Assembly (NCBI GenBank): GCA_017626405.1
Contig: JAGAIS010000001.1
Location: forward strand, 124,001-188,000
Length of the DNA stretch: 64,000 nt
Reading direction: 5' to 3'
DNA from: Bacilli bacterium
Lineage (GTDB): Bacteria > Bacillota_I > Bacilli_A > RF39 > UBA660
The notes beneath the pieces were generated by a model. That model did not search any database. It saw only the letters and a program-made list of their open reading frames with translations, and was not told the DNA's origin. Shown piece by piece: positions 31,922-36,486 of the stretch; positions within the stretch are counted from its first letter, which is position 1, and the number at the start of each line of letters is the position of its first letter. Position numbers and translations under genes: made by a program.

Positions 31922-32245
31922 ATGAAAATATTAGTTAGTGGTGGTACTGGTTATATTGGTAATCATACTGTTGTTGAATTACTTAATAACAATTATGATG
32001 TAGTTATTATTGATAATCTATGTAATTATAAGAGTGATGTTATTGATAAGATAAAAAAGAAAGAAATTAATGTTTGTATATATGAATCAACTATTATAGA
32101 AAATACCTTTAATGGAATAGAAGTTATACATGATTTAGAATTATTTAAAGATATTAGTAACGTTATTATTGCTAATAGAACTAGTTCTGATTTCGATGAT
32201 TGTAAGGATAGAGTTTATACTCGTGATATCTTTGATAGAGATTAG
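31922..32245 (+). pseudogene. In-frame galE'-'ugd chimera
   Basis: A 107-codon frame with a good ribosome site (AGAGGTGAAG). Residues 1-45 are the N-terminus of UDP-glucose 4-epimerase ([20 protein letters not shown], the NAD-binding GxxGxxG). From about residue 47 on ([38 protein letters not shown]) it is the C-terminus of UDP-glucose/GDP-mannose 6-dehydrogenase. The join lies near 32055-32066 in an A-rich stretch. A deletion between adjacent galE and ugd genes best explains it. Neither enzyme activity can remain; whether the protein is made is unknown. Confidence 0.8.
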
Positions 32246-32687: not shown

Positions 32688-33062
32688 ATGGAATTCAACG
32701 AGAAAAGATTAACAGCAACTGAAGTAATATCTAAAATAGCAACATATGGTGATAAGGATTTTGTTTTAAGTATGGATAGAGATAAAAATGAAGATACTAT
32801 AAATAAATATAAACTTACATCTGAAGATATTATTTATTATATAAGACATTTAACTGTTAATAATAAACCTCATTGTATTGAGAATAAAGATAAAAGATAT
32901 AAGACAAAGTATTTATATGAGTTTAAGAAGAATCCTATAATAACAATTGAAGATGAATATGGTGATTTAGTTTCTGTAAGTATGTTTTTTAAAGTTGGAT
33001 TTCATAGTAATAAAAGTATTATTTATGGCGTATCTTTTCATGAAGATGATTTTATAAAGTAA
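32688..33062 (+). CDS. Putative MqsR-like toxin
   Basis: 124 residues. The order of features resembles Gram-positive MqsR-family mRNA interferases: a KLTSEDIIYYIRHLTV segment near 41-56, a charged loop before YEFKKN, beta strands VSVSMFFKVGF, and a C-terminal GVSFHEDDF close to the family's ISFHEAEF ending. It is expected to cleave mRNA when unbound. GAAAGGGAAAG precedes the ATG. The antitoxin-like gene starts 13 bases downstream, so toxin comes first as in mqsRA. Assignment is moderate because length and core residues were not aligned. Confidence 0.6.
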   Translation: MEFNEKRLTATEVISKIATYGDKDFVLSMDRDKNEDTINKYKLTSEDIIYYIRHLTVNNKPHCIENKDKRYKTKYLYEFKKNPIITIEDEYGDLVSVSMFFKVGFHSNKSIIYGVSFHEDDFIK

Positions 33063-33074
33063 TAGGTGATGAAA

Positions 33075-34073
33075 ATGAAAAAAAATTTATATTGTTTATC
33101 ATGTGATGAAATTAGAGAATGTAATTTGAAAGAAAACAAGATTACAAAAACAATTGATGGTATAACTATTACGTATTTAGAGAAAAAATATATTTGTAGT
33201 GTTTGTGGTGAGGTTGTTTATGATGCAGAAACTTTTGATTATAATATTCATACTGCAAATGATGAACTTAGAAAGCATACTGGATTAATAAGAACATCTG
33301 AGATACAAGAAATAATAGATAAATATTCTATTAGTCAAAAGAATTTATCTAAAGTATTAGGATTTGGAGAAATACAAATATCAAGATATTTGAAATCTGG
33401 TAATCCTAGTAGAGCACATTCTGATATTTTAAAATCTATAAAAGATAATCCATTTGTATTTGAAGGTTACTTACTAAATGCAAAAGATATACTTGATGAA
33501 AAAACATTTAGAAAACAATTGGGAAAGGTTAGACAATTAGAACTTTTGAGTAATCATTCTAAAATATATGATATAAGCGTGTATTTAATGGAACACAATC
33601 CTGATACAACTAATATGTCTCTACAAAAAATATTGTATTTCTTAAATGGTTTTTCTAAAAAGTTTTTAAAATACAATTTATTTAATGATTTAGCTCAAGC
33701 TTGGATTTATGGACCTGTTTATCCTGAAATATACGATGCTTTATCTTATTATTTTTATAATAAGATTGATGTTGATGAAATACTAAAGGATAAGGAAATT
33801 GATTTAAGCGAGGAAGAAATAAACTATATAAATAATGTAAGTAAATTTTTTTCGTGTTATAGTGGTAAGAAGCTTCGCGATATGTCACATTTAACCGATC
33901 CTTGGTTAAATGCAAGAAAAGGTTTATCTGAAAAAGAACCATCAAATAGAATAATAGATAATAAAGATATGGATAATTATTTTAGTAAAGTAATAAAAGA
34001 TTATAATATTGAGACTGTTGATGATGTTAACAAATATGCTCAAGATCTTTTTAATAAAGTTTTAGATAATTAA
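33075..34073 (+). CDS. MqsA-like zinc-ribbon/HTH antitoxin with Panacea (DUF4065) domain
   Basis: 332 residues, predicted antitoxin. The N-terminus has two CxxC pairs (CLSCDE and CSVCGE, near 6-45), an MqsA-like zinc ribbon; next comes a helix-turn-helix (QKNLSKVLGFGEIQISRYL, near 90-110); the C-terminal half is the Panacea/SocA domain with MSLQKILYFLNGFSKK near 180 and AWIYGPVYPEIYDAL near 210. Panacea domains are known to neutralise many unrelated toxins. ATG 33075 is chosen behind AGGTGA; GTG 33066 overlaps that site. Confidence 0.8.
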   Translation: MKKNLYCLSCDEIRECNLKENKITKTIDGITITYLEKKYICSVCGEVVYDAETFDYNIHTANDELRKHTGLIRTSEIQEIIDKYSISQKNLSKVLGFGEIQISRYLKSGNPSRAHSDILKSIKDNPFVFEGYLLNAKDILDEKTFRKQLGKVRQLELLSNHSKIYDISVYLMEHNPDTTNMSLQKILYFLNGFSKKFLKYNLFNDLAQAWIYGPVYPEIYDALSYYFYNKIDVDEILKDKEIDLSEEEINYINNVSKFFSCYSGKKLRDMSHLTDPWLNARKGLSEKEPSNRIIDNKDMDNYFSKVIKDYNIETVDDVNKYAQDLFNKVLDN

Positions 34074-34110
34074 TTAGAAATGTTTAAAACACAAAATAAA
34101 TAGTATATTA

Positions 34111-34116
34111 TATAAT
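34111..34116 (+). promoter_or_regulatory. -10 box of the small RNA
   Basis: TATAAT preceded by AT-rich sequence; predicted start at about 34120-34123, at the first base of the structured RNA. Confidence 0.5.
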
Positions 34117-34119
34117 TAG

Positions 34120-34205
34120 GAGAAGTGGAAAATCTTGCGCCAAGCACCCTAGCGGTTATAAAGAGATGAATGGACAGCGAGTCCTTCCTCCTATCTATTT
34201 TTTGT
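34120..34205 (+). ncRNA. Unidentified structured small RNA candidate
   Basis: An 85-base stretch far richer in G and C than its surroundings and with no reading frame. Its ends pair: AGGAGAAG (from about 34118) with CTTCCTCCT (34186-34194), and a run of six T follows (34199-34204), so closing stem and T run together look like a terminator. Internal pairings include GGAC-AGCGA-GTCC (34172-34184) and CGC/GCG around GCGCCAAGCACCCTAGCG. It does not fit SRP RNA, tmRNA, RNase P, tRNA or the common riboswitches that I know. Could be a small RNA, a self-cleaving RNA or a riboswitch. Confidence 0.5.
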
Positions 34206-34226
34206 AATTTTATAAGTAGTAAATTG

Positions 34227-34249
34227 GGAATGATTATATCATTCCTTTT
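34227..34249 (+). terminator. Terminator downstream of the small RNA
   Basis: GGAATGAT (34227-34234) with ATCATTCC (34238-34245), then four T. Confidence 0.65.
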
Positions 34250-34432
34250 CTAGTGTATATGCGATATTCTTAATAATAAAGTGATAAAACAATCAATTTA
34301 GAAAAATCATACTTATAATAGGTGGTATTTATCATTGAAAAAATATGTAAACAATATTCGTCTTTATCATATTTTTTTCTTTTAATTATATTATTTAATG
34401 TATTATAATATATTTTGTTGAAGGTGAATAGT

Positions 34433-35158
34433 ATGAGCTATAAGAAAAGAAGGGCAATAGTTAATTCTATCTTTGATAAATATAATATTAATATTGAAGA
34501 TAGAGAAGAAATAATTAAGATTATTAGACCTATTGTTAGACATCCTGAGTTTATTAAAAGATTAACTCATGAATTTTTACATCATGATAAAGTAACTTTA
34601 GGATATCATATATTAGAAGATACTGTAGTTACATTTAATTTATGTAAGAAAAATATGTTAACTAAAGAACAAACAGAAATAGCTATGAAGATTGCTATGT
34701 TACATGATTTATATGTTGAACCATGGCAAAATAATGAAAAAGCTAAGAATAATAAATTACTCAATAAGCATGGTTTTCGTCATCCTATAGAAGCTGTTGT
34801 CAATGCTATTACTTGGTTCCCAGAATTTTTTAAGGATGATAATGAAGCTATGATTATTATAGATGGAATAATTCATCATATGTTTCCATTACCTGTAATG
34901 AGTGTCGATAGTACTAACTTTATGGATTTACAACTTAATAATTTAGATTCTTTTCTTAAACTCGATGATAGATATAAGAGACTTATATATAAATCTTGTA
35001 GTAGAAAGAAGTTTAAAAGATTATCTTTTGCAGGATCTTCTTATATTGAGGGAAGATTAATGAGAAAAGCTGATAAATTATCTTCTCTTGATAATTTTAG
35101 TAGCATAAGGGGAGTAGTTGCTTTAGTTACTGGTAAAAATAAACACATAAAAAAATAA
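34433..35158 (+). CDS. HD-domain phosphohydrolase-like protein
   Basis: 241 residues, mostly helical. Candidate metal ligands of an HD domain are the His near residues 45-58 (HEFLHHDKVTLGYH), the HD pair in IAMLHDLYVEPW near 93, GFRHPIEAVV near 115 and IIHHMFP near 146. Such proteins hydrolyse phosphomonoesters or cyclic nucleotides; this one resembles small uncharacterised HD hydrolases of Bacillota. AAGGTGA precedes ATG 34433. Confidence 0.75.
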   Translation: MSYKKRRAIVNSIFDKYNINIEDREEIIKIIRPIVRHPEFIKRLTHEFLHHDKVTLGYHILEDTVVTFNLCKKNMLTKEQTEIAMKIAMLHDLYVEPWQNNEKAKNNKLLNKHGFRHPIEAVVNAITWFPEFFKDDNEAMIIIDGIIHHMFPLPVMSVDSTNFMDLQLNNLDSFLKLDDRYKRLIYKSCSRKKFKRLSFAGSSYIEGRLMRKADKLSSLDNFSSIRGVVALVTGKNKHIKK

Positions 35159-35433: not shown

Positions 35434-36396
35434 TTAATTTTTATTTAAAAAATTCATTACTAAATCTATTAATATTTCTTTTTCTTTTGGATTAGACTGT
35501 GCAATGAGTATAGTGATTGCAACTAATGTATTATTATCAATAACTTGTCTGTTATCTTTATAAAGAATATTATAGAAATCTAAAAAATATATAAATAGAG
35601 TAGCAGCTATTCTTTTGTTCCCATCTATAAATGTGTGATTTTTAGTTATTAGATATAAAAGGTTGGCTGCTTTTTCTTGGATAGTTGGATATAAGTCTTC
35701 TCCATTGAATGTTTGATATATAGCACCAATTATAGCTTCTAATCCTTTTTCTCTTTCTAGAGCAAATAATTTGCTATTATTATTAAACCTTAATTTGTTA
35801 ATAATGTTTATACAGTCATCGTAAGTTATTTTATCTTTGTTGATATTGCCTTTAGGTTTCACTATTCTTTTATGATCATAATCATCGAGTAAGTTTAACG
35901 CATTAGAATATATGTTTATAACTTTAATTATATCTAGTGCTTCATTTCCATCTAAGTCTGTATCAATTCTTCCAGCAATATCTATAAGTTTAACAGTCTT
36001 TTCAAGATATTCTAATCTTTTCTCATTAACTGCATAGCCTTTAATCATATAATTCTTTAATATTCTATTGGCCCATTTGCGAAAAATAACACCATTTTGT
36101 GATTTAACTCTATAACCAACACTTATTATAACATCTAGATTATAATAATCTAATTCCCTAGTTTGCGTTTTGTCTTTTATGTTCCCATGTTTGGTGGTAT
36201 GTGCAAATTTTGCACATACCTCATTTTTATGTAATTCGTCATCTTTAAAAATGTTGTTGATATGTCTTAAGATAACCGTTCTGTCTCTATTATATAGCTT
36301 TGACATTTGGTCTAATGATAACCAGACAGTATCGTCATTAACATTTACTTCTAATTTTACTTCTTGATTTTCAAATATTATTATTTCATTTTTCAA
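35434..36396 (-). CDS. RhuM-Fic/DOC fusion protein
   Basis: 320 residues. The N-terminal half (about 20-120) is a RhuM/virulence-type domain with [19 protein letters not shown] and the conserved FRKWAN segment; the C-terminal half is a Fic/DOC domain with the active-site motif [15 protein letters not shown] near residue 250, giving His, Asn and Arg for nucleotide or phosphate transfer to a target. Such fusions act like toxins of the Doc type. Start chosen as TTG 36396, with AAAGGA ten bases upstream; GTG 36405 sits too close to that site. No separate antitoxin gene (Phd-like) is visible beside it. Confidence 0.85.
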
Positions 36397-36486
36397 AATA
36401 AACACATCCTTTACTTATTTATTAACGATAATTTTTTGATTTACTTCGATTTTTTAGTGTAATTTTGATTATTTTGGATTTTAGTG

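Follow-up and report, generated by a model that had tools for sequence, protein, structure and literature searches.

Introduction

For ToxIN, a type III toxin-antitoxin (TA) system, two reports describe an RNA antitoxin that binds the adjacent toxin (PMC5772629, PMC8860590), and the structured-RNA motif of AbiF/RCd22 neutralises its adjacent toxin by direct binding, both in cis and in trans (PMC12373285). For the MuF polymorphic toxins of temperate phages, small proteins encoded downstream have been proposed as immunity factors (PMC5576092). PBECR domains are predicted RNases, found both as solo proteins of phages or mobile elements and as fusions to phage head proteins (PMC5512222), and for the RNA family skipping-rope (Rfam RF02924) a covarying pseudoknot is shown in the Rfam 14 paper (PMC7779021). 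Here we analyzed a 64,000-nucleotide (nt) stretch of a Bacilli bacterium genome (contig JAGAIS010000001.1, positions 124,001 to 188,000 of the forward strand; hereafter the window), in which a structured RNA at 34115-34195 (+) is, judged by its homology, a divergent, below-threshold member of skipping-rope. We consider it likely that skipping-rope RNAs are the partner or antitoxin RNAs of small PBECR2/PBECR3 nucleases, and that the window copy is an orphan that has no toxin gene.

In the literature searched, we found no function assigned to skipping-rope and no earlier report of its association with PBECR genes. The description by Weinberg (2017), which is said to be the original one of the family and in which an earlier remark on this link is possible, was outside that search.

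Family membership and fold of the window RNA

A sequence-only reading of the window had described the RNA as unassigned, and since Rfam with default settings reports no match anywhere in the window, the RNA looks new. A permissive Rfam search of 33600-34700 (4227 families, up to E=5), however, aligned 34115-34195 over the full length of the RF02924 model (1-80 of 80 positions) with 29.9 bits and E=1.1e-4, so that the covariance-model search suggested by that reading led to a known family, at a score below its curated cut-off of 36.7 bits. The same search returned no match to a signal recognition particle (SRP) RNA, whose GGAA signature the sequence-only reading had found to be missing, and none to a ribozyme family. 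Membership of RF02924 is supported by transitive homology: the nearest homologue, from a different genus of the same taxonomic family, is 81% identical to the window RNA and scores 59.3 bits, far above the cut-off, and an independent covariance model made from nine relatives with the window left out of the seed (R1 model) gives the window RNA 41.9 bits (E=1.9e-9). With the R1 model, the window copy is the sole copy in its source genome. A DNA-only search of 193 genomes of the taxonomic family yielded one true homologue, the remaining matches being T-tract noise, and these chance loci were reused as control loci (see below). Skipping-rope is distributed sporadically, in about 15 of 386 genomes of the taxonomic family; the RF02924 search of the family genomes skips the window copy owing to its pre-filter.

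The window RNA shows the P1-P4 architecture of RF02924 from end to end. The terminal stem P1, a covarying helix, pairs UAGGAG (34117-34122) with CUCCUA (34188-34193) and runs straight into the T tract TCTATTTTTTG (34194-34204), a probable terminator tail, as the sequence-only reading had seen. The P2 hairpin (34126-34142), delimited by comparison with relatives and by covariation, is reduced to UGG/CCA (34126-34128/34140-34142), that is, to three pairs versus five or six in most relatives. Its loop carries the pseudoknot strand CUUGC (34134-34138), the partner of GCGAG (34177-34181), whose outer G is common to P4. Of the two further hairpins, which also covary, P3 (34146-34156) pairs ACC (34146-34148) with GGU (34154-34156), and P4 (34168-34187) pairs GAA.GGAC with GUCC.UUC around one bulged U. 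The conserved single-stranded core AAAGAGAUG (34160-34168) is identical in the ten closest homologues, and the GAGAUG within it (34163-34168) is near-invariant across the whole family. The GGAC/GTCC hairpin (34172-34175/34181-34184) and the core GCGCCAAGCACCCTAGCGG, both picked out by the earlier reading, are thus present, whereas P2, P3 and the conserved pseudoknot had been overlooked. The G+C content of the RNA is 47%. Its single-sequence folding energy is unremarkable (z = -0.4); such energies are uninformative for single sequences and, not being significant, were dropped as a test of the RNA. Chance is excluded not by energy but by homology, through the Rfam alignment, the independent model and covariation.

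Covariation was assessed over 35 distinct homologues. Standard pairs fill 92.6% of the pair cells versus 64.9% after shuffling, and 21 of the 22 pairs have changed on both sides. The covariation score is 0.658 versus 0.178 for shuffled alignments, with none of 500 shuffles as high, and sliding the partners abolishes the signal; the score benefits from an alignment that had been fitted to the structure, but the margin is very large. For the loop-loop pseudoknot, the mean pairing score is 12.06 versus 8.48 +/- 0.39, with none of 5000 permutations as high in a statistic that leaves the relatedness of the sequences in. Together with the two model searches, the covariation in homologues, which the sequence-only reading had named as a check, bears out its proposal of a discrete structured RNA. 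Its proposal that the RNA has its own promoter and terminator held for the terminal stem and T tract and less well for the promoter: the promoter-like TTTAAA-N17-TATTAT (34083-34111, +) matches the consensus at 9 of 12 positions and is weak by itself, as 7 such sites were found versus 4.8 expected by chance. Better candidates stand at the same position in relatives (TTGATA/TTGAGG-N17-TATAAT; read from the sequence, TTGATA-17-TATAAT in L060 and L064).

PBECR genes beside the RNA

Among the neighbours of the loci found by searching for the RNA first, one small protein recurs, which Pfam assigns to PBECR2/PBECR3, a phage barnase/EndoU/colicin/RelE-like nuclease. At or above the RF02924 cut-off, a PBECR gene or pseudogene lies within ~650 nt of the RNA in 13 of 29 distinct loci, versus 0 of 28 control loci (p = 4e-5) and a chance expectation of ~0.001 loci. 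A DNA pattern for the RNA had six matches in viral contigs, five of them with the toxin gene just upstream; a looser version of the pattern gave mostly chance matches and was rejected.

The association also holds when the protein is searched first. Plasmid records were picked by tblastn with PBECR proteins, ignoring the RNA, and 14 loci were fetched, of which 13 carry RF02924 at or above the cut-off within 7-140 nt; for the 14th (L096), the RNA is known from the corresponding genome locus (L053/L075), of which L096 is a plasmid-borne copy. The plasmid loci come from Priestia, Sporosarcina, Brevibacillus, Macrococcus, Bacillus (including pTA1060), Planococcus, Fusobacterium, Treponema and a Mycoplasmatota plasmid, and thus from the phyla Bacillota, Fusobacteriota, Spirochaetota and Mycoplasmatota; several are near-duplicates (the Bacillus pair types and Fusobacterium), and the independent number is about ten. 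In 296 genomes of the class, the RNA accompanies seven of eight PBECR3 frames shorter than 160 amino acids (aa) and none of five longer, polyvalent frames (238, 513 and >2300 aa).

Phages show the same pairing. In viral contigs where a PBECR tail ends a minor capsid protein of 547-552 aa, the RNA lies 10-20 nt past the stop codon (4/4), and in one of them (L109) the order is terminase, portal, minor capsid-PBECR, RNA, scaffold-like and capsid-like, gene names that were assigned by reading except for the PBECR domain. In a prophage of the same genus as the window (L059), the RNA likewise follows a minor capsid-PBECR2 fusion, at a distance of 12 nt. A PBECR structure model predicted from viral sequences has a predicted local distance difference test (pLDDT) score of 77; its PDB matches are weak (BrnT and a TA complex, E about 1), and among viral proteins it matches a minor capsid protein and, less strongly, C-terminal MuF proteins. 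The genes annotated spbA in Streptococcus phages are related to PBECR as well, and the RNA lies 19 nt downstream (70.3 bits) in all three testable records; a fourth record stops at the gene end. By the title of a 1992 report by Lereclus and Arantes (cited in PMC9430311), a spbA locus is said to ensure the segregational stability of pHT1030. The collections that we searched did not yield the sequence of pHT1030, whose spbA is a candidate member of the PBECR family.

Other elements were seen on these plasmids and contigs. At four PBECR plasmid loci (L089, L090, L091, L095), a Bacillus-plasmid RNA (RF01691) is found past the convergent skipping-rope RNA, ~100 nt further on, and a gene for a 305-aa helix-turn-helix (HTH) protein directly precedes the toxin gene. 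A PGK RNA (RF03040, 79.4 bits) lies at 1195-1289 of L041, ~210 nt upstream of the skipping-rope RNA.

RNA without a toxin gene

The RNA can outlive the toxin gene. Within one genus, a rodA-like gene is followed by a PBECR gene and then the RNA at L063; at L062 the flanks are the same and the RNA region is 94% identical, but the toxin gene is absent, a natural toxin loss. Broken or truncated toxin genes stand beside the RNAs of L039, L040, L052/L073 and L095, and at L064 and L069 just the last residues of the toxin are left before the RNA. Such an asymmetry is that expected of an antitoxin or immunity factor. On a phage contig (L235, 1512-1716, -), two tandem skipping-rope RNAs of different subtypes follow an amidase-like endolysin gene with no toxin gene and form a possible antidote array. 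On a further contig (G430:C4; L036/L052/L055/L057), a stretch of 5 kb carries four or five skipping-rope RNAs whose subtypes differ and, in their midst, a PBECR3 pseudogene.

No PBECR2/PBECR3 gene was found in the source genome of the window, and the MqsA/Panacea operon upstream of the RNA (see below) has no counterpart at any other skipping-rope locus examined; therefore, the window copy is best understood as an orphan, be it a functional antidote or a relic. Like L064 and L069, the window may keep the last residues of the toxin. The peptide LEMFKTQNK (34074-34103, +), whose stop codon precedes the RNA by 12 nt like that of L059, is a possible relic of a PBECR C-terminus; its comparison with the C-termini IEEIFKK (L059), KKGKIEILFDRKDKK (L064) and GKIEKLFDKK (L069), each followed by a stop, covers a short stretch and is suggestive only. 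On the other side of the RNA, the 3' flank (34210-34250, +) contains a second terminator-like hairpin (34226-34246) and, on its left, a stretch of 22 nt, TTATAAGTAGTAAATTGGGAAT, that is identical in the L059 flank, while the RNAs themselves differ more.

A real but less probable alternative to our main reading is that the family acts as an antitoxin while the window copy itself does nothing, having merely survived the loss of a PBECR toxin gene: the shortened P2, the score below the cut-off, the genome without a PBECR2/3 gene, the possible toxin remnant directly upstream and the sporadic distribution all fit a relic. However, P1, P4, the pseudoknot, the AAAGAGAUG core and the T tract are intact, and the window RNA and L002, from different genera, have identical P4 hairpin loops and pseudoknot strands, which suggests selection.

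Proposed function and comparison with known systems

In the function that we propose, a separate promoter, close to the 3' end of the toxin gene or within it, would drive transcription of the RNA, which would fold into a three-hairpin structure with the conserved AAAGAGAUG core, locked by the pseudoknot between the P2 and P4 loops, and be released by the terminator at the P1 stem. By analogy with ToxI-ToxN and RCd22-AbiF, it would then bind and inhibit the PBECR nuclease, a predicted toxin. On plasmids, RNA and PBECR would form an addiction module, and in phages with a C-terminal PBECR toxin on the minor head protein, the RNA would replace the immunity protein. Orphan RNAs would arise by loss of the toxin gene, and may guard the cell against PBECR toxins that arrive via phages or plasmids.

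This pair resembles type III TA systems (ToxIN/CptIN/TenpIN) as follows: a small pseudoknotted RNA is paired genetically with an endoribonuclease-type toxin gene on mobile elements, an adjacency found for the RNA family and not for the window. It differs in that the toxin is PBECR2/3 and not ToxN-like, in that binding is a prediction, and in that tandem-repeat RNA upstream of the toxin gene with a terminator between is replaced by a single RNA unit, usually downstream or convergent. AbiF/RCd22 likewise places a structured RNA motif beside a toxin gene (PMC12373285), but the Abi_2/AbiF protein belongs to a family other than PBECR, and the abiF motif to one other than skipping-rope, with no relation between them. 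As in MuF toxins (PMC5576092) and PBECR polyvalent proteins (PMC5512222), the nuclease domain can be the C-terminus of a phage head protein; unlike in MuF toxins, an RNA gene and not a small-protein gene occupies the downstream immunity place here. Toxin family, RNA, single unit and flexible placement would therefore be what is new relative to known RNA antitoxins. The window RNA itself has the T tract after P1 in common with RF02924, besides the architecture, core and pseudoknot, and differs from other members in its score, its P2 and the absence of a toxin gene alongside.

Several observations weigh against the proposed function. More than half of the RNA-first loci have no recognizable PBECR gene nearby, and the role of the RNA may be other or wider than that of a PBECR antidote. 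The window RNA subtype occurs in one other genome only, also without a toxin gene, and no cognate toxin for it was found in viral contigs or in 241 order-level genomes; with its weakened P2 and low score, the window copy may be decaying. The placement of the RNA also speaks against a fixed operon, yet fits a trans-acting antitoxin: the RNA lies on the same strand upstream (L053/L096, L041, L042) or, mostly, downstream of the toxin gene, or on the opposite strand and convergent with it (Bacillus and Planococcus plasmids).

The RNA loci without a PBECR neighbour, about half, and the presence of both RNA and PBECR on plasmids and prophages would also be seen if skipping-rope had a regulatory role in trans that has nothing to do with the toxin and merely co-travelled with it on mobile elements. 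We think this improbable, given that all plasmid PBECR loci examined, from four phyla, have the RNA immediately adjacent (7-140 nt), that the pair stays constant while other neighbours change, and that the RNA was not seen with long polyvalent PBECR proteins. The convergent arrangement would suit an antisense (type I) antitoxin acting by base pairing with the mRNA of the toxin; at other loci, however, RNA and toxin gene share a strand, and what is conserved is structure (stems, pseudoknot and fixed core) while the toxins differ widely, so that an antisense role is highly improbable.

Skipping-rope is a widespread RNA family, and its pairing with one defined nuclease family makes the question of its function experimentally simple. 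If the partner-RNA reading is true, there is a new class of RNA antitoxin, with toxin family and RNA both distinct from those of ToxIN and AbiF, an RNA can serve as the immunity factor of polymorphic phage toxins, and sporadic solo copies such as that of the window are explained as orphan immunity genes. For the wider claim, that skipping-rope is a new RNA antitoxin class and the first immunity factor made of RNA against MuF-type polymorphic nuclease toxins delivered by phages, with orphans as a chromosomal or phage-borne antidote repertoire against incoming PBECR toxins, we see the chances as evenly balanced.

Neighbourhood of the RNA in the window

Upstream of the RNA lies a two-gene TA-like operon (32688-34073), as the sequence-only reading had stated. 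Its antitoxin gene was confirmed and encodes 335 aa, with a SocA/Panacea domain joined to an MqsA-type zinc/HTH part; relatives of this protein were not found in genome contigs. The open reading frame of 124 aa that precedes it, presumed to be the toxin, belongs to no family in Pfam, NCBIfam or PADLOC and has weak relatives only, and its AlphaFold model was too poor for use (pLDDT 63). The RNA begins 42 nt after the antitoxin stop codon, as would a third part of this operon (a regulator or second antitoxin), but that is the least probable of the alternatives, as no other skipping-rope locus examined adjoins such an operon, the nearest homologue lies between an ATP-binding cassette (ABC) transporter gene and mutS, and the recurrent partner in relatives is the PBECR nuclease gene.

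Further downstream, a RhuM + Fic protein (35434-36405, -) matches the PADLOC candidate defence family PDC-S23, and together with the TA operon it looks like a small defence-type patch. On the far side of the operon, a 107-aa open frame (31922-32245) matches the N-terminal part only of NAD-dependent epimerase and is apparently a fragment.
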